Source: a virus
Virus record (IMG/VR): IMGVR_UViG_3300047319_001031
Location: 1 to 64,000 of that record
Strand: one strand, 5' to 3'
Length of the DNA stretch: 64,000 nucleotides
Shown here: one piece after another, positions 37,877-60,796 of the stretch
Numbering within the stretch: the stretch's first letter is position 1
How the letters are laid out: every line of letters begins with the position of its first letter
Made by a program: the position numbers and the translations under genes
Notes under the pieces: generated by a model
What the model saw: the letters and a program-made list of their open reading frames with translations, nothing else
Told to the model about the DNA's origin: nothing
The model's database searches: none

Positions 37877-38833
37877 CTACATTTTGACCCGTTTGAGCGG
37901 CGCGACCGTGGTGATCTTCCGGCCCCGCAAGTACGCCTTGGTTGTGTTCGGGTCCGTGTGTCCAAGGAACTTGGTTGCGTCCTGACCCGCGGCATCGACA
38001 TCGGTTCCAGCCTTGGCTCGAATGTCGTGCCAGATGGCACGCTCTTCGATACCGGCAGCTTTGAGCGCCTTTCGCCACCAACGTCCCACGGTCTGTCGAA
38101 TCAACGGCTGACCACCGCGCCCGGAGAGAACGTAGATGCTTCCCACGTTGTCGCTTTGAAGCGCACGCGCTTGGGCAAGCAGCTCTCGGAAATCATTGTC
38201 TAGGACGTACCTCTGACGAGCGCCGGTCTTTTTGGTGTGAACCGCGGACCCATCATCAAACTGGTCCCAGCGCAATTTGCAGAGATCGCTGATGCGCAAA
38301 CCCGTGGCATAGGACAGCTCGATCGCTACGGAGAGTAGAGGGGGTGCGTGGCTCAACACATCGCTCAGTTCGGTGTGGGTCAAGTAACGGTCTCTCGACG
38401 CCCGCTTCCGATCCGACTTAGCACCTATGCAGGGGTTAAAGGTCAGCTTCTCCAGCTTCAACCAACGACTGTAGCTTTTCGAAAGCAGGCTGATTTCACT
38501 GCGACCACTGGTTCGTGGGCAGAGGTCGAGATACTTGGCGATGTCACCCTGCGTTATGGACGCAGCGTCCATCTCACCGAAGACTGCTTCGATGTGCCGT
38601 TGCCACGCGTTATGTTGGAGGTGCGTTGATGGTGCTTGTTTGCCGGCGATCGAGGCAAGGTATTCTCGGAGCATGGTGCTGACCGATTGCACAGCGCCAG
38701 CTTGTTGGCATAGTGCTCGGTACCTTGCTATTGCTACCGATTCAATGGACCCAAGGGCGACCCACTTTCTCGGTGTCGCTTGAGTGTCGTAATAGAATGC
38801 GCGGCCTTTGCGCCGCAAGCGGGGAAATTTCAT
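37877..38833 (-). CDS. int: Tyrosine-type integrase
   Basis: A 318-residue tyrosine recombinase. The N-terminal part (about 55-140) has a SAM-like DNA-binding helical region. The catalytic domain shows the first arginine in YATGLRISDLCKLRW (about residue 190), HDIRAKAGTD (about 270, His and second Arg, with Lys in place of the usual second His) and LGHTDPNTTKAYLRG with the nucleophile Tyr near 300. It integrates and excises the prophage by site-specific recombination. The start overlaps the DUF4224 gene by one base (TAATG), so the two are made together. Confidence 0.9.
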   Translation of the reverse strand: MKFPRLRRKGRAFYYDTQATPRKWVALGSIESVAIARYRALCQQAGAVQSVSTMLREYLASIAGKQAPSTHLQHNAWQRHIEAVFGEMDAASITQGDIAKYLDLCPRTSGRSEISLLSKSYSRWLKLEKLTFNPCIGAKSDRKRASRDRYLTHTELSDVLSHAPPLLSVAIELSYATGLRISDLCKLRWDQFDDGSAVHTKKTGARQRYVLDNDFRELLAQARALQSDNVGSIYVLSGRGGQPLIRQTVGRWWRKALKAAGIEERAIWHDIRAKAGTDVDAAGQDATKFLGHTDPNTTKAYLRGRKITTVAPLKRVKM

Positions 38834-42764: not shown

Positions 42765-42929
42765 CTATCGTGGACCGTTGATCGAACATGGAAAACGTTT
42801 CAGCTTCACTCCCCCTCTCGACCATGACAGCGGACCCTTGTCTCCCATGGTGGTTATCGTTCGTCCTAATAGTTTTCCTCCTGAGTAAGAGTGCCCGCTT
42901 CTGATCAGGTAGTAGGGCATCAGGATCAC
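42765..42929 (-). CDS. MI-family microprotein (isolated member)
   Basis: A 54-codon frame from a GTG that overlaps the stop of the Cas4-like gene (GTGA). The product begins MILMPYYLIRSGHSYSGG, fitting the MI[LPF][LIVFM]xP[WFY] start of the family described at 62967-63152. It is basic and rich in Ser, Gly and Arg. It is the only member outside the arrays. Confidence 0.45.
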   Translation of the reverse strand: MILMPYYLIRSGHSYSGGKLLGRTITTMGDKGPLSWSRGGVKLKRFPCSINGPR

Positions 42930-43597
42930 TGCTTTCTCCGCTTCGGTTTCCAGAAGTCGCACGTCGTCACTGGACACCAGCCGTTGCACAATCCGCTCTG
43001 CCGCGGCTGCCACGTGTTGGTCATGAACGCATCCCGGAACTGCTTGATGTCGGGTAGAAACTCCTGCCACAGTGCCGGGATGTCAGCTCGCACGAACGTG
43101 TCGGTGTCCTTCGCTTTCACCTTGAGCCAGAAGAATCCCACCTTGATCTTTTGCACAGCAGGGAAGTGCTGGAAGATCAGCAGCGCCATGAGCTTCATCT
43201 GCTTGCTGTCCTGCTTGCGGTTACCGGTCTTGTGGTCCATGGCGAATGCCATATCGCCATCCACATGCAACACATCCGCGACGCCGCGCACGAATACGTT
43301 CTTGGCAAACTTTTCGCAGGGGTTGAGCTGGTTGTCGAGCGCCATTTCGTGCTCGACATACATCGTGCCCCGCACCGCCTTGATCGCGTCGAGGTAGCCC
43401 TGATACATCGACAAGTCGATCGGCAACGGCTTGCCATCTTTCAGATACGCCTCGAATGCTTCGTGCACCCGCTCGCCCCATAGCACTGCCTCGCCCCGGA
43501 CGTCGACGACATCCTTCACCACCTTGAGGTGGTAATACTGCTTGGGGCAGTTGCTGAACTGCGACAGTGCAGTGTGGGACCATGCGTTCGGTTTCAC
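42926..43597 (-). CDS. Cas4/RecB-like exonuclease with Fe-S cysteines
   Basis: A 223-residue PD-(D/E)XK nuclease. An early Cys (NCPKQYY, about residue 17) and a late triplet (CNGWCPVTTC, about 203-212) form the four-cysteine pattern of the Cas4/AddB iron-sulphur cluster. Between them are GERVHEAFEAYL (about 42), GVADVLHVDGD (about 105) and the DHKTG active-site element (about 120). It likely resects DNA ends for recombination with the helicase and SSB-like protein. There is no cas locus, so it is a phage recombination enzyme, not CRISPR adaptation. Confidence 0.85.
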   Translation of the reverse strand: MKPNAWSHTALSQFSNCPKQYYHLKVVKDVVDVRGEAVLWGERVHEAFEAYLKDGKPLPIDLSMYQGYLDAIKAVRGTMYVEHEMALDNQLNPCEKFAKNVFVRGVADVLHVDGDMAFAMDHKTGNRKQDSKQMKLMALLIFQHFPAVQKIKVGFFWLKVKAKDTDTFVRADIPALWQEFLPDIKQFRDAFMTNTWQPRQSGLCNGWCPVTTCDFWKPKRRKQ

Positions 43598-48099: not shown

Positions 48100-48666
48100 T
48101 CAGTCGTCGCGGCGCTCATCACGCTTGGTCTGCCGATCGTCTTGGCGTGCGTCGCGCTCGCCCTTCCGCTCGTCTTGCTTGGCATCGCGCTCAGCTTTCC
48201 GCTCGTCACGGCTACCACGATCAGGCCGCTCGTGGCCGGGAGTTCCGGGTACGAAGCCGGGCGGTGTTTCAGGCTCGGGTGGCGGCACCACACCATCCTT
48301 CGATCCCTTCACGACCAGCAGCGATTGATCGGTACAGATGACCACACCCGATGGGTGTCCGTTCTCGTGCGCGCCGTAGTCGTAATACGTGCCGGTGAAA
48401 ATGTCATAGCGCGGCGGGCCGTTGCTCGCCATGACAGCGTTGTAATCCGCGTTGCTCATGAAATCGAGAACTTCCAGATCGCCGAACTTGTAAATGAAAC
48501 CGGCAGCGACCGCTGCCTGTTGTCGATGGCCGGGGATGTTCTGCTCGCCGCCCGTGACCGGCAGTGTCTTCGACCAGTCGGTCACCTTTTTTCCGAGATC
48601 GGTCAGGTGGCGTTGTGCCGACTCGCCGTGTTCAAATTCGACCATCACTTCGTCGAGATCAATCAT
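48100..48666 (-). CDS. Hypothetical protein with charged repeat tail
   Basis: A 188-residue protein. Residues 1-140 look globular, ending in a Pro-rich linker (PPPEPETPPGFVPGTPG). The last 45 residues repeat DERKxERDAKQDE units, a strongly charged helix. It overlaps the DUF6378-type gene by 4 nt. Function unknown. Confidence 0.65.
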   Translation of the reverse strand: MIDLDEVMVEFEHGESAQRHLTDLGKKVTDWSKTLPVTGGEQNIPGHRQQAAVAAGFIYKFGDLEVLDFMSNADYNAVMASNGPPRYDIFTGTYYDYGAHENGHPSGVVICTDQSLLVVKGSKDGVVPPPEPETPPGFVPGTPGHERPDRGSRDERKAERDAKQDERKGERDARQDDRQTKRDERRDD

Positions 48667-49070
48667 GTTGACTCTCCTTTGGGGGATTCACTGCTTACAG
48701 CATGAACATTGGTGTCAGCAGGATGCGTAACCAAGTGGTCCATGTGTTCCTCGGTGGGTGGTACGGCGAACAGAGGGGTATTCTGCAGTGCCTTTTCGTA
48801 TGAGTCAATGCGATCGATGAGGCCAACGTAGCCAGCGACGTCAATTAGCGAGTCACGATGGCGTGGTGAGTGCATCAGCCGTGCCACTTTCATCAGCACC
48901 ATCATCATGGCAACATCTTCCACCGTGAGCGACAGCGCCACGTGGTGTTTCCGTTCGATGAAAACGCGCCACAGCTCGGCGATGTTTTCGAGGTTGACGC
49001 CCGGGCTGCCGTAGGTCTGCTCGCGATCGCCGTGGATGATCTCGTGCGCTTCGGTGAGGATGTCTTTCAT
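48663..49070 (-). CDS. DUF6378-type protein
   Basis: A 135-residue protein from the ATG at 49070. ILTEAHEIIHGDREQTYGSP then NIAELWRVF and DVAMMMVLMKVARL with HRDSLIDVAGYVGL match the DUF6378 pattern of phage proteins related to nucleotide pyrophosphohydrolase-like folds. It has no clear Shine-Dalgarno. An alternative GTG at 49094 lies inside the operator-like palindrome. The 3' end overlaps the next gene (ATGA). Confidence 0.75.
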   Translation of the reverse strand: MKDILTEAHEIIHGDREQTYGSPGVNLENIAELWRVFIERKHHVALSLTVEDVAMMMVLMKVARLMHSPRHRDSLIDVAGYVGLIDRIDSYEKALQNTPLFAVPPTEEHMDHLVTHPADTNVHAVSSESPKGEST

Positions 49071-49087
49071 GCAAACACCATAGGTAA

Positions 49088-49117
49088 TGACCACATGCTG
49101 ATGTGGTCAATAGTATA
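49088..49117 (-). promoter_or_regulatory. Leftward promoter with palindromic operator
   Basis: TATACT (49117-49112, - strand) is followed within three bases by a perfect 9-bp inverted repeat, TGACCACAT with ATGTGGTCA, at 49088-49109. The repeat would cover the transcription start. A TTTACC about 19 nt upstream is a weak -35. This looks like a repressor-controlled promoter for the 49070-46932 genes, placed right after the terminator that ends the microprotein array. Confidence 0.6.
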
Positions 49118-49145
49118 GTGGGATTGGTACTGCTGAGGTAAAGCT

Positions 49146-49165
49146 CCCCCCGGGCGGCCGGGGGG
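49146..49165 (-). terminator. Strong G+C hairpin ending the 49.2-50.8 kb run
   Basis: CCCCCCGG and CCGGGGGG form an 8-bp stem with a 4-nt loop, directly after the last microprotein stop and the short GTGATCTAA. There is no T tract, so it may work as a transcript end or as a pause/processing signal. Confidence 0.6.
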
Positions 49166-49170
49166 TTAGA

Positions 49171-49317
49171 TCACTTCGGCCATCTTCCTGAGCGTGAGTG
49201 TTGCCACGACCAAGGCATAGGTTGAGATCCGCCTGTTCGTGACGCACCGTACGGCCATGTGCCTGACTTCGACACGGACAGCATCCACTTCCATCGCCAA
49301 GGCGGAAGGAAGATCAC
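49171..49317 (-). CDS. MI-family microprotein r
   Basis: 48 codons, GTG start inside the stop of microprotein q. It begins MIFLPPW and ends HSRSGRWPK, so it has both family motifs. Tryptophan makes up 7 of 48 residues. GGAG lies 8 nt upstream. After its TGA the next GTGATC is followed at once by TAA, so the chain ends here, 5 nt before a hairpin. Confidence 0.5.
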   Translation of the reverse strand: MIFLPPWRWKWMLSVSKSGTWPYGASRTGGSQPMPWSWQHSRSGRWPK

Positions 49318-49451
49318 CGCGTCGACTCCGATCGGATGCGCGGGCTCGACCGAGACCGGCACCACGACCAGCACACCGGGCCGGTGCGCGATGCACAGCG
49401 TGATAGGCGCTCCAACATGGTCCGGGTCACCCAGCCGGGGAAGCGGATCAT
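49314..49451 (-). CDS. MI-family microprotein q
   Basis: 45 codons from ATG, ending with a stop that overlaps the GTG of microprotein r. It begins MIRFPGW. Cys, Ser and Arg are frequent (WCRSRSSPR). The frame also stays open upstream of the ATG, so the start rests on the family pattern and the overlap. Confidence 0.45.
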   Translation of the reverse strand: MIRFPGWVTRTMLERLSRCASRTGPVCWSWCRSRSSPRIRSESTR

Positions 49452-49579
49452 CGCCAGCTCACTGATTTCGCCGTGGCTCGCCCCCTTGCCGCTCCTGACC
49501 ACGACCACGCCTGCCCTCGGAACGACGAGACGTCCTTCCGCTTGTTACCCTTTGGTGTGACAGGAAGTAGAAGGATCAC
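49448..49579 (-). CDS. MI-family microprotein p
   Basis: 43 codons from a GTG that overlaps the stop of the 49576-49971 gene (GTGA). It begins MILLLPV, followed by a basic stretch and WSWSGAARG. It is the first member of this three-gene chain and joins it to a normal gene by the same overlap. Confidence 0.45.
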   Translation of the reverse strand: MILLLPVTPKGNKRKDVSSFRGQAWSWSGAARGRATAKSVSWR

Positions 49580-49971
49580 GCCGCCACTTTCTTCTTCGGC
49601 CGCTTGGTGTGGGCCTTTTCTGTAGGGAACACCGAGCGCACTTTGCCATGCTTCTTACCGTTGACCTTGGCCACCACCTTGGCCTTGGCTGGCTTGGCAG
49701 CGCGCGGTGGTTGGTGCATCACCATGTCGTCTGGTAGGCGCCACAGCCGCATGCCCCCTTGGTCCTTCCGGATCATCACCTGAATGTTGAGCTTCTTGGC
49801 CACACGATAGAAGCGCGTGGCGCGCTTGGCGATCGGCGCATCGAAGTAGATGCTCTCGCCCGGCTGCAGCGCCTTCAAGAGTGCAATGTTGTGCCCCTGC
49901 CGCGCTGCTACCGGTGGAATCGGAACGTTCTGTTCCACCGTGAAACCGTAAACAATTCGCTTGCTGCTCAT
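49576..49971 (-). CDS. Hypothetical basic protein
   Basis: A 131-residue protein from the ATG with AAGGAGAGG about 11 nt upstream. It has a strand-rich middle (VYGFTVEQNVPIPPVAARQG) and a Lys/Arg/Pro/Ala C-terminal tail of about 45 residues, like many DNA-binding tails. It is followed by a chain of microproteins. Function unknown. Confidence 0.65.
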   Translation of the reverse strand: MSSKRIVYGFTVEQNVPIPPVAARQGHNIALLKALQPGESIYFDAPIAKRATRFYRVAKKLNIQVMIRKDQGGMRLWRLPDDMVMHQPPRAAKPAKAKVVAKVNGKKHGKVRSVFPTEKAHTKRPKKKVAA

Positions 49972-50024: not shown

Positions 50025-50321
50025 TTAGTCGGGTACCTCTGTTGCCGGTGGTATTGCCACCGACCCTACGATTTGCCCGGCGTGCATAATTGCCACTTCC
50101 GGTGCAATTATAGATTGCGTGCGACAAAAGGCAAGTATGTCAGCTATTGTAGTATCCAACCCTACAAGCTCAACAAGTGGCGGGGTGGCTCTTACGAGGG
50201 TCAACCGGTTGGCCCCCCGGAAGGCGTCGACGCCCATCGCGACGCATAGGCGGGTCAGCCGAGTCTCCGTCCTAGTAGCTCGCGCTAGTATTTCTTGTAG
50301 CATGTTGTGGTCATTTGCCAT
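50025..50321 (-). CDS. Hypothetical protein
   Basis: A 98-residue helical protein (LQEILARATRTETRLTRLCVAMGV) with a hydrophobic second half (LVELVGLDTTIADILAF). GGAAAG stands before the ATG, and the last codons of microprotein o overlap its start. No motif. Confidence 0.6.
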   Translation of the reverse strand: MANDHNMLQEILARATRTETRLTRLCVAMGVDAFRGANRLTLVRATPPLVELVGLDTTIADILAFCRTQSIIAPEVAIMHAGQIVGSVAIPPATEVPD

Positions 50322-50493
50322 GTTGCTTTCCTTTGGTAAATGCTGATCTATCGTGGCTACCGGATAGAGATGTAGAAAAAGACCACGCGTGCATCGAGCA
50401 CCACAGTTTAGTAGAGCCCGAGTGCGATCGCGAGACCCGTACGGGCAGCAGCTTAGTGTTCCGGCATATCAGCCATGGGGGCAGGGGGATCAT
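50311..50493 (-). CDS. MI-family microprotein o
   Basis: 60 codons from an ATG inside the stop of microprotein n. It begins MIPLPPW and includes VSRSHSG. Its end runs into the start of the 50025-50321 gene, covering that gene's Shine-Dalgarno and start codon. In the alternative frame the stretch DDPPAPMADMPEH ends after 13 codons. Confidence 0.45.
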   Translation of the reverse strand: MIPLPPWLICRNTKLLPVRVSRSHSGSTKLWCSMHAWSFSTSLSGSHDRSAFTKGKQHGK

Positions 50494-50648
50494 CGCTGCG
50501 TCTTTCTTCCTTGTTGCCTCGATCCCGAGTACGCCATTGAACGTGCTCCATGCCACGATGCAAACCCCGACGTGCGTCGCGTTGCCGATCCTGATCGAGA
50601 CGCTCGGGGTGCCCGTTGCGTAACGGGCCAAAACAGAATCAGGATCAT
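50490..50648 (-). CDS. MI-family microprotein n
   Basis: 52 codons from ATG. It begins MILILFW and has ASRSGSA near residues 16-22 (codons TCT CGA TCA GGA). The stop overlaps the next ATG. The alternative frame gives a well-formed longer reading (DDPDSVLARYATGTPSVSI), so this is the member where the frame choice is least certain. Confidence 0.4.
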   Translation of the reverse strand: MILILFWPVTQRAPRASRSGSATRRTSGFASWHGARSMAYSGSRQQGRKTQR

Positions 50649-50788
50649 CGCGGCCCCGATTTCGATTGAACATACGATCGCGATCTAGCTAGGCCATTTT
50701 TTGTTCCTGACATTGACCATGGACGTTTGACCACGCCCGATCCTGAACGTGACCCTCTTGCATTCCACCATCGAGGAATAAAAATCAC
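50645..50788 (-). CDS. MI-family microprotein m
   Basis: 47 codons from a GTG overlapping the stop of the 270-residue gene. It begins MIFIPRW and has GSRSGSG near residues 12-18 (codons TCA CGT TCA GGA). GAGGG lies 4 nt before the GTG. First member of this three-gene chain. Confidence 0.5.
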   Translation of the reverse strand: MIFIPRWWNARGSRSGSGVVKRPWSMSGTKNGLARSRSYVQSKSGPR

Positions 50789-51597
50789 GCCGCCCTCACG
50801 CGAATGTTACGGTGCTCGGTGCGCACCGTCTTTGTGTTGAACCACTTCGGATCGCCCAGCTCGGCGCGCAGCAGGCAGTTGATCAGGGCCTCGGTGGCGC
50901 CGATGGGATCGGCATGCTTGGTGGCTCGTCCAACCCGCCCGTAGCACGCCCGCCCAAGGGGCGAGGTGTTCGTGGCGCAGCGAGCGATGTCAGCGTGGTC
51001 GGCCTGTGCATCGAGCAGCCTGAACAGCTCGCGTCTCGCCTCGTGGCCATCGGGTGCTGAGGCGTACCCGTCGAATCCGACCAGCTTCGGAAACTCGCCC
51101 AGTACCAGCCGGGCAAAGCAGGCGTTGCGGAAGTGCTCGCCGATGCGCCGCCGCTCGGCCTTCAGCTCGGGCTTGACCCGGATCTCATCTCGAACCTTGA
51201 CGATGACGTTCTGCACGGTGCCATCCGGCAGCACCACGATCGCTCGATCCATGGGCCACCAGTCGCCGTAGATGTCGCGGAACACCTGCTGTCCGTGCTC
51301 GACGCCTACTGAGAACGGTCCGTGCTCGCTGGTGCAGCTGCGCGTGATGTTGCTGTCCCAGTCGTTCACGATCACCGTGCCGTCGCGAAAGAACTGCAGG
51401 ATGTCGGTGCGGTAGAGCCGCATGCACATCGCGCGCTCGTACTCGTCGCTCACCGGATGGATGTACTCTCTGGATCGCAGTCCATAGTTTTTGCTGCGGC
51501 CCTCAGCGATCAGGACCTCGGGTTTATCCAACAATAGCTCAGCGATACGGTCGTAACTCAACCGCCCACTGATCTTCAGGCTCGATCTTCCGTACAT
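50785..51597 (-). CDS. Hypothetical 270-residue phage protein
   Basis: A 270-residue protein with mixed strands and helices. No motif was recognised despite features such as YGLRSREYIHP (about 38), RDGTVIVNDWDSNI (about 70) and a Trp-rich GDWWPMDRAIVVL (about 112). AAAGGAAAA precedes the ATG. Partly degenerate CRP-like half-sites lie about 25 nt upstream. The stop overlaps microprotein m. Confidence 0.65.
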   Translation of the reverse strand: MYGRSSLKISGRLSYDRIAELLLDKPEVLIAEGRSKNYGLRSREYIHPVSDEYERAMCMRLYRTDILQFFRDGTVIVNDWDSNITRSCTSEHGPFSVGVEHGQQVFRDIYGDWWPMDRAIVVLPDGTVQNVIVKVRDEIRVKPELKAERRRIGEHFRNACFARLVLGEFPKLVGFDGYASAPDGHEARRELFRLLDAQADHADIARCATNTSPLGRACYGRVGRATKHADPIGATEALINCLLRAELGDPKWFNTKTVRTEHRNIRVRAA

Positions 51598-51630
51598 GGT
51601 TTTCCTTTAGTAAATGGTTTGCTACACCTG

Positions 51631-52200
51631 TCACAAAACCTGTTGCGCCAGCTTCACCAGCTCCAGCACCAGCCGCACGCGAGCATCGTCATCTGCTGAG
51701 TGAATGCGTTTGGCGTAGACTTTTTTCTCCGCGCGTGCCGGTATGGCATCGAGCGGGAAGCTCCCCACCAGTGCTGGCAGCTCCGCTGCTGATCCGTTCC
51801 CGTTGACTGGATGACCATTGCCGGGTAGACCAGCTGCCTTGCGCGCGGCTACGCTCGCAGCGAAGTTTTTATGCTGCTCATCAGTCCACGGGTGCCCGTT
51901 TTTTCCGTACTTCAAGCCCGTTCTGGCTTTAACAAAATTGGCGCGGTGCTCGGATGTCCAGATCTTGTTGTTGGCCTTGTCGGGCTTGCCAGCCACCTTG
52001 CGCGCTTTCAGACCTTTGGCAATATTCTCCGCATGCTCCTTCTTCTTCGCTGCACTGCGTGCTGCCATGGTCGCGGAGAATTTCTTGTGCCGTTCCGGCG
52101 TCCATTTCTGCGGATGCTTTTTCATGTATGCCTTCACTCGTTTTGAGGTTGCTGCTCTTTGCTCCGCGGTCCACTCGTAGCCACTATTTTTCGTAGCCAT
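51631..52200 (-). CDS. Repeat protein with WTxEQ modules
   Basis: A 189-residue Lys/Ala-rich protein. Four short modules begin with W-T-x-E/D and a His/Gln/Arg/Ala helix (WTAEQRAA, WTPERHKK, WTSEHRAN, WTDEQHKN), spaced by about 26-33 residues, as in NUMOD-like DNA-binding repeats. The end is helical. The ATG at 52200 with GAGGT close upstream is preferred. It may bind DNA. Confidence 0.65.
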   Translation of the reverse strand: MATKNSGYEWTAEQRAATSKRVKAYMKKHPQKWTPERHKKFSATMAARSAAKKKEHAENIAKGLKARKVAGKPDKANNKIWTSEHRANFVKARTGLKYGKNGHPWTDEQHKNFAASVAARKAAGLPGNGHPVNGNGSAAELPALVGSFPLDAIPARAEKKVYAKRIHSADDDARVRLVLELVKLAQQVL

Positions 52201-55645: not shown

Positions 55646-55664
55646 ATCGTTCTCCTTTAGTGAA

Positions 55665-55682
55665 TTGTGAGACGTCTCACAA
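55665..55682. promoter_or_regulatory. CRP-like palindrome, copy 3
   Basis: TTGTGAGACGTCTCACAA is a perfect 18-bp palindrome, immediately upstream of the ACTAAAGGAG site of the 55645 gene. Being so close to the Shine-Dalgarno, it could act on DNA or as an RNA hairpin. Confidence 0.65.
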
Positions 55683-55692
55683 ATCGGCCCTA

Positions 55693-58822: not shown

Positions 58823-58842
58823 TTTGTGATACCTCTCACAAA
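58823..58842. promoter_or_regulatory. CRP-like palindrome, copy 4
   Basis: TTTGTGATACCTCTCACAAA lies upstream of the DUF3150-like gene and covers the stop codon of the 58836-59045 gene, whose last codons are inside the palindrome. The overlap implies the element is conserved as DNA or RNA even at the cost of coding. Confidence 0.7.
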
Positions 58843-60367: not shown

Positions 60368-60387
60368 TTTGTGATACCTCTCACAAA
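60368..60387. promoter_or_regulatory. CRP-like palindrome, copy 5
   Basis: TTTGTGATACCTCTCACAAA, identical to copy 4, lies about 30 nt upstream of the MoxR start and 26 nt after the last microprotein stop. It separates the microprotein array from the ATPase operon, which suggests independent control. Confidence 0.7.
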
Positions 60388-60413: not shown

Positions 60414-60644
60414 CTACTGCTCATACCATCCATCCAGCCCGTATTGGTGATCGAGCTGATCGGATGTAAATCGATGTGCATCGTCGCGGCAATCGCCAAA
60501 GTAATCGGCAAGGTGGTACTCACTACAACAGCCACACTCGACTACTAGGACGGGCGGACTGAACCAGCTCTGCGTGTTCGATCGCGTCCGCGACCCTGAC
60601 GTTGATCGGCACGTAGGGTAGGCGACAAAGGGTAGGAAGATCAT
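60414..60644 (-). CDS. MI-family microprotein l (long member)
   Basis: 76 codons from an ATG inside the stop of microprotein k. It begins MIFLPFV and has SGSRTRS near residues 16-22. The C-terminal half differs from the others: it is acidic and rich in aromatic residues (CCSEYHLADYFGDCRDDAH), so it could be a member fused to a different tail. Last gene of the chain. Confidence 0.45.
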   Translation of the reverse strand: MIFLPFVAYPTCRSTSGSRTRSNTQSWFSPPVLVVECGCCSEYHLADYFGDCRDDAHRFTSDQLDHQYGLDGWYEQ

Positions 60645-60796
60645 CGGCCATACCTCGGACCACGACGACCACCAGAAAAAGAAGTGAAACTTTTGACGCC
60701 GCTAATGCGCGACTTTGATGTGGAAAAGTAATATCTAAATCGTGTCGTCGTGGTAACTCCGCGCGTGTTCGTTAGCCAGAGGGGTAGGGGGATCAT
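60641..60796 (-). CDS. MI-family microprotein k
   Basis: 51 codons. Begins MIPLPLW. An alternative longer reading starts 11 codons upstream (MDKVRIENRVT) with GGAAG about 10 nt before it. The frame contains SKSRISG. Stop overlaps the next start. Confidence 0.45.
   Translation of the reverse strand: MIPLPLWLTNTRGVTTTTRFRYYFSTSKSRISGVKSFTSFSGGRRGPRYGR

Follow-up and report, generated by a model that had tools for sequence, protein, structure and literature searches.

Downstream of a 131-residue gene on the minus strand of this uncultured phage, three short open frames (p, q and r) overlap in series, and the locus raises the question of whether such a chain is an incidental product of G+C-rich DNA or a maintained set of coupled genes. 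The analysis of the window, the whole 64,000-nt stretch studied here, taken from a virus record of 68,753 bases, points to p/q/r as one of six arrays of lineage-specific, translationally coupled paralogous microprotein genes, a reading to which we assign, on sequence evidence, a probability of roughly 0.58. The left side of the window carries terminase, portal-like and major head protein genes, and the right side, mostly on the minus strand, carries genes for a primase/helicase, an integrase, a helicase, a DNA polymerase, an HNH protein and an ATPase. Given the integrase gene (37877-38833, minus strand; phrog_1, 1e-37), the phage may be temperate. A search among 50,697 phage records returned no DNA relatives of the window; the nearest relative found was IMGVR_UViG_3300044454_000039 (L006), with a polymerase identity of 59%. 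Elsewhere in the window, a 33-nt tandem repeat (48133-48207) lies within a 188-aa gene and encodes a charged R/D/K-rich tail.

The preliminary description placed the start of p within the stop of the 131-residue gene, with serial overlap of p, q and r, and the minus strand indeed has each of these elements (Table 1). The link between p and q is an ATGA overlap, and those between q and r and between r and a terminal GTG-ATC-TAA are GTGA overlaps. The chain is masked in a longest-ORF listing because earlier starts get reported there. Overlapping ORFs of at least 40 aa are cheap in this DNA, appearing in 11% of shuffles, and the plus strand has a three-ORF chain too; the plain ORF-overlap statistic was not significant, and the RTGA-link statistic was therefore used instead. 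Three RTGA-linked ORFs of 40-80 codons in series occurred in 0 of 20,000 dinucleotide shuffles of the p/q/r stretch. The GTG-ATC-TAA, previously regarded as a two-codon remnant, does carry the start motif RTGATC of the family described below, but it may alternatively be read as the closing codons of a longer frame that is open on its upstream side (49396-49166). The 131-aa gene itself has an ortholog in L006 (7973-8437, 41% identity in the alignment); its product combines a conserved core (KRATRFYRVAKKL) with a Lys/Ala/Pro-rich, histone-H1-like tail, which is longer and more repetitive in L006.

Table 1. Coordinates of the micro-ORF arrays in the window and of the features that flank the p/q/r array
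Feature	Position	Strand	Description
Array A1	62678-63152	minus	starts 63152 (61 aa), 62970 (46), 62833 (51, TAG)
Array A2	61608-62228	minus	starts 62228 (47 aa), 62088 (56), 61921 (50), 61772 (54, TAG)
Array A3	60414-61327	minus	starts 61327 (65 aa), 61133 (59), 60957 (54), 60796 (51), 60644 (76, TAG)
Array A4	50314-50788	minus	starts 50788 (47 aa), 50648 (52), 50493 (60)
131-aa gene	49576-49971	minus	Lys/Ala-rich C-terminus; TGA 49578-49576 contains p start
p, micro-ORF 1	49448-49579	minus	43 aa, GTG start, VILLLPVTPKGNK...; weakest family member
q, micro-ORF 2	49314-49451	minus	45 aa, ATG start inside p TGA, MIRFPGW...
r, micro-ORF 3	49171-49317	minus	48 aa, GTG start inside q TGA, VIFLPPW...
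GTG-ATC-TAA, truncated fourth start motif	49166-49174	minus	inside r TGA; period 143 = 2 mod 3
Hairpin CCCCCCGG-CCGC-CCGGGGGG	49146-49165	minus	perfect 8-bp G+C stem, 4-nt loop, -17.3 kcal/mol
Weak promoter-like TTTACC-19-TATACT	49112-49142	minus	-10-like TATACT 49117-49112
Perfect palindrome TGACCACAT-N4-ATGTGGTCA	49088-49109		between -10-like site and DUF6378 gene
DUF6378 protein gene	48663-49070	minus	PF19905, 9.4e-28
A6, single unit	42765-42929	minus	54 aa, VILMPYY...; start in TGA of gene 42926-43597

A linked-chain scan recovered four further arrays on the same strand as p/q/r, and a single unit starting at 42929 was added separately, giving a family of 19 micro-ORFs of 43-76 aa in six arrays of one phage (at 42.9, 49-51 and 60-63 kb), a larger pattern than the second array that had been claimed. 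All 19 members share the start consensus (M/V)-I-x-[LFIVM], which lies at an RTGAT[CT] site, and residue 7 is usually W; the RTGATC start also bears the TGA of the preceding frame, except in the first units of two arrays. Codon 4 has T at its second position in all 18 aligned starts and its bases 1 and 3 vary, and such constancy with variable neighbours argues for conservation, or selection, at the level of the amino acid. For the single unit A6 (held-out profile E=5.8), only motif and position support the assignment. Across the five multi-unit arrays, 13 RTGA links were observed, whereas shuffles gave 0.17 on average and never more than 3. This linkage is accompanied by SD-like sequence before the starts of the family as a whole, the mean SD energy being -4.7 before unit starts, -4.2 for ordinary genes and -2.6 inside units (P=0.0006 for unit starts versus unit interiors); taken singly, p, q and r score -2.3, -2.8 and -6.1.

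Of the arrays, four have their first start within the TGA of an ordinary gene and two extend into the start of the next gene. Array A4 opens in the TGA of a 270-aa gene (50785-51597) and ends within the start of a 98-aa gene, and an HTH-like gene (61324-61635) provides the TGA in which array A3 opens, while its GTG start is overlapped by the terminal TAG of array A2; for the five arrays other than p/q/r, the next gene lies on the same strand at a gap of -11 to +76 nt. Arrays that occupy same-strand stretches between genes in this manner, with products of poor codon use, would also be in keeping with a function of translation itself, whereby the chains hold ribosomes on the RNA, prevent Rho-type polarity or aid coupling to the next gene, and the peptides are by-products. 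We consider this explanation unlikely, as it leaves the conserved hydrophobic start motif, the W and a cross-array S-x-S-G pattern unexplained, and as the same effect could be obtained from ordinary short spacers. The HTH-like gene, on the minus strand and exactly between A2 and A3, encodes a protein with a Cys pair and, by eye, an HTH/XRE-like look. A palindromic operator-like site, TTTGTGAnnnnnnTCACAAA, is found in the window in five exact and two near copies against 0.2 expected (21-40, 797-816, 55664-55683, 58823-58842, 60368-60387 and 62228-62247, and 51618-51637 with 2 mismatches), one of them adjoining the first start of array A2 and another lying upstream of the ATPase gene. These sites probably serve a regulator of the phage's own, for which the HTH-like protein is a candidate.

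The spacing of the units is uniform in phase, with unit-to-unit periods of 128-194 nt that are 2 mod 3 in 14 of 14 cases (chance 2e-7 if independent), and the unit frames contain 0 stops in 1,019 codons, versus about 56 that the base composition of the frame itself would predict, a zero count that is partly given by construction because units were defined as open. The 2 mod 3 rule likewise follows from an open, linked chain of any kind, but the linkage and the shared motif do not. Together with the recurrence of the architecture in six places, the SD-like sequence upstream of the starts and the codon-level conservation of the start motif, these results lend good support to the earlier proposal that the overlaps are maintained. 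They also bear on the notion that p, q and r are pieces of one decayed gene, or of a gene split by sequencing or assembly indels. A composite with three -1 steps does look protein-like and the coding signal changes frame, but the -1 step is identical in each unit, holds for 14 of 14 units at other loci and comes with a common start motif, and the composite has no match with a meaningful E-value in phages, plasmids, IMG/VR, Pfam, NCBIfam or the PDB. With the pattern repeated at other loci, a decayed gene or sequencing indels are largely refuted and the idea is barely tenable.

The unit-frame products are rich in Ser (18%), Arg (13%), Gly (9%) and Trp (5%) with less than 3% acidic residues, and the pI is 10-12 in all but one of the 18 products checked. 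Ser-x-Ser occurs 65 times versus 31.5+-4.5 expected and Ser-Ser only 8 times versus 31.9 expected; at the DNA level, TC recurs every 6 nt, with 56 such TC-6-TC pairs in phase with the unit frame and 1 out of phase. The family alignment displays repeated S-x-S-G blocks downstream of the start motif. Using a held-out profile built from the other arrays against 1,218 window frames, q (E=0.0014) and r (E=0.042) each ranked above all non-members, and p (E=2.3) did not rise above chance, so that p belongs to the family by start motif and position only. When only the tails were scored, 12, 0 and 34 of 1,500 decoys ranked above p, q and r, respectively. A single-sequence AlphaFold2 model of one unit gave a pLDDT of 62 and no structure. 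As a guess, such cationic S/R/G/W peptides might bind nucleic acid or membranes as small proteins during infection.

The codon statistics present a different picture. Synonymous codon choice in the unit frames scores -0.126 per codon (CI -0.17 to -0.08) versus +0.106 for phage genes and resembles that of the wrong frames of known genes, with rare A-ending codons enriched and Ser encoded by TCN, AGC being nearly avoided; the term microproteins is a fair reading of the sequence, but the frames differ from phage genes in codon usage. The -1 frame is the better fit to base composition by codon position (distance 0.15 vs 0.90), the amino-acid make-up of this frame is likewise nearest to that of phage genes, and the codon log-odds move from the unit frame into the -1 frame 15-30 nt past each start, a change of coding-like signal also present in the p/q/r array. 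With the statistics on the side of the -1 frame, the chief competing explanation is that this frame is coding, perhaps as one of two coding frames, or ancestral: either the ribosome shifts by -1 after M-I-x-L-P-x-W, or the micro-ORFs overprint an older gene, and the unit body would then encode a valine-rich, strand-like domain, as the look of its translation suggests (for example GIAVTLRCKENTAQEFVVWYGNAETESIALGVDVHIEG).

We nevertheless judge a functional -1 frame, present or past, to be rather unlikely. Its 947 codons include 24 stops, a frequency close to that of ordinary non-coding frames, and stops break it in two thirds of the units; it has no conserved start; and in the held-out profile test a median of 175 decoys ranked above it versus 13 for the unit frame. 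Its strand-like alternation is found with GTC/ATC codons but not with GTG/GTA and is hence not a property of the valines, a codon parity that rules out the -1 frame as the driver of the periodicity. The antisense reading (Asp-x-Asp) matches the performance of the unit frame in the held-out test because the same TC periodicity is mirrored, and this frame has stops in 8 of 18 units. On the strength of the -1-frame stops, the alternation confined to GTC/ATC, the poor -1 profile and the antisense stops, the unit frame was taken as the translated one.

That mirrored score, the strict 6-nt periodicity and the recurrence of the start motif as a DNA element confined to minus-strand gaps would all suit a repeat acting at the DNA or RNA level, in which a duplication or recombination site is joined to a degenerate hexamer (TCRSGR) and the open frames are incidental. 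Such a repeat would, however, leave unexplained both the 2 mod 3 periods and the stop-free frames, and folding of the unit RNAs is unremarkable (mean z -0.22; p/q/r array z -0.38), making the explanation highly unlikely. Rfam gave no match, and with no fold signal either, a structured RNA was rejected. TRF reported no tandem repeat at the arrays, because the copies are too diverged.

At its 3' end the p/q/r array meets what had been described as a strong hairpin and a new promoter. The hairpin is indeed strong and is the sole occurrence of its G+C pattern in the window, but the promoter-like site is weak and was not reported by a consensus promoter scan. The hairpin is followed by the tail AGCTTTACC, without a U-tract, and does not qualify as an intrinsic terminator, nor was it listed by that scan. 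For this reason the earlier suggestion that the array forms the 3' end of an operon, and with it a transcript boundary at the 49-kb array end, stands as plausible from the sequence and not beyond; the five other arrays run into the next gene, and no similar hairpin was seen at their ends. The perfect palindrome farther along (one in the window, 0 expected) could be an operator or a 5' mRNA hairpin, and the DUF6378 gene that follows has no clear SD. In L006 the DUF6378 gene lies 15 nt after the ortholog of the 131-aa gene, which indicates that the 400-nt array, the hairpin and the promoter-like stretch were either gained here or lost in L006.

Relatives of the micro-ORF family were sought in IMG/VR, GTDB genomes, INPHARED phages, Pfam, PHROGs and the PDB, and none was found; profile searches of Pfam, PHROGs, NCBIfam and the PDB likewise gave no significant match. 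A two-motif DNA pattern, with 5 occurrences in the window and 0 in shuffles, matched 62 stretches among 2.9 million IMG/VR viral contigs, none containing an array, and a three-motif pattern matched 23 stretches in 84,980 GTDB species genomes, with no relative among them. One linked three-motif match (L137) proved to be a Pseudomonas repeat cluster and was rejected as a relative. These patterns demand W and a fixed spacing, and diverged arrays elsewhere could therefore escape them. The complete records of three related phages lack an RTGA-type chain, and the family profile produced only weak matches in 20 related phage records, some of them spanning stops. Ordinary gene callers tend to miss the family since they choose the longest start or discard frames with odd codon usage. 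A search of the open-access full-text literature found no comparable system.

Several known systems resemble these arrays in part. ATGA/GTGA-overlapping gene pairs share the 4-nt start-stop overlap, the common strand and the SD-like sequence before the downstream start. For ATGA overlaps, termination-reinitiation is an established and common mode of translation, with strict coupling in 13 of 14 tested pairs (PMC6728339). Coupling of ordinary short genes by a 4-nt overlap is also present in this phage (53372-52763) and in its relatives. Unlike such pairs, the linked members here are paralogs of one orphan family, with up to five members per array and six arrays per genome, and the overlap falls within a conserved start motif. 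Like small phage proteins of fewer than 100 aa, the units are short, fast-diverging, located in an early-type gene region and without database relatives, but those proteins usually occur singly or in small unrelated clusters, whereas the units are duplicated in series and have a body with 6-nt periodicity. Overprinted de novo viral genes offer a comparable case of an odd, Ser/Arg-rich open frame over a frame with normal coding statistics, yet here stops break the underlying frame in two thirds of the units and the overlap recurs in tandem. The Pseudomonas REP clusters (the chance match above) also consist of units of about 130-190 nt repeated between genes; REP copies, however, are nearly identical and palindromic, while the micro-ORF units share only the start motif and the codon-phase pattern, and keep the frame.

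Under the preferred reading of coupled paralogous genes, ribosomes ending the upstream gene would reinitiate at the overlapping start and pass down the chain by termination-reinitiation, yielding a series of 43-76 aa peptides that would be very basic (pI about 10-12) and probably flexible. The arrays may have expanded by tandem duplication of a single unit with a length of 2 mod 3, after which the duplicated units would have diverged as selection held the frame. A further proposal, possible but doubtful, is that of a serially chained micro-gene cassette, which seeds in an unrelated stop and then multiplies into relay-translated, diverging cationic peptides, possibly with dual coding in the -1 frame; its start motif carries the stop of the previous gene, which would let such a cassette seed in the stop of a gene unrelated to it. 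If the chains are translated, new small genes could be gained that need neither a promoter nor a separate start, by a route of seeding in a stop codon, duplicating a 2 mod 3 unit and reinitiating onward. Such a route would open gene birth by termination-reinitiation to direct testing, and translation of the chains would add a 19-member orphan peptide family from a single phage.
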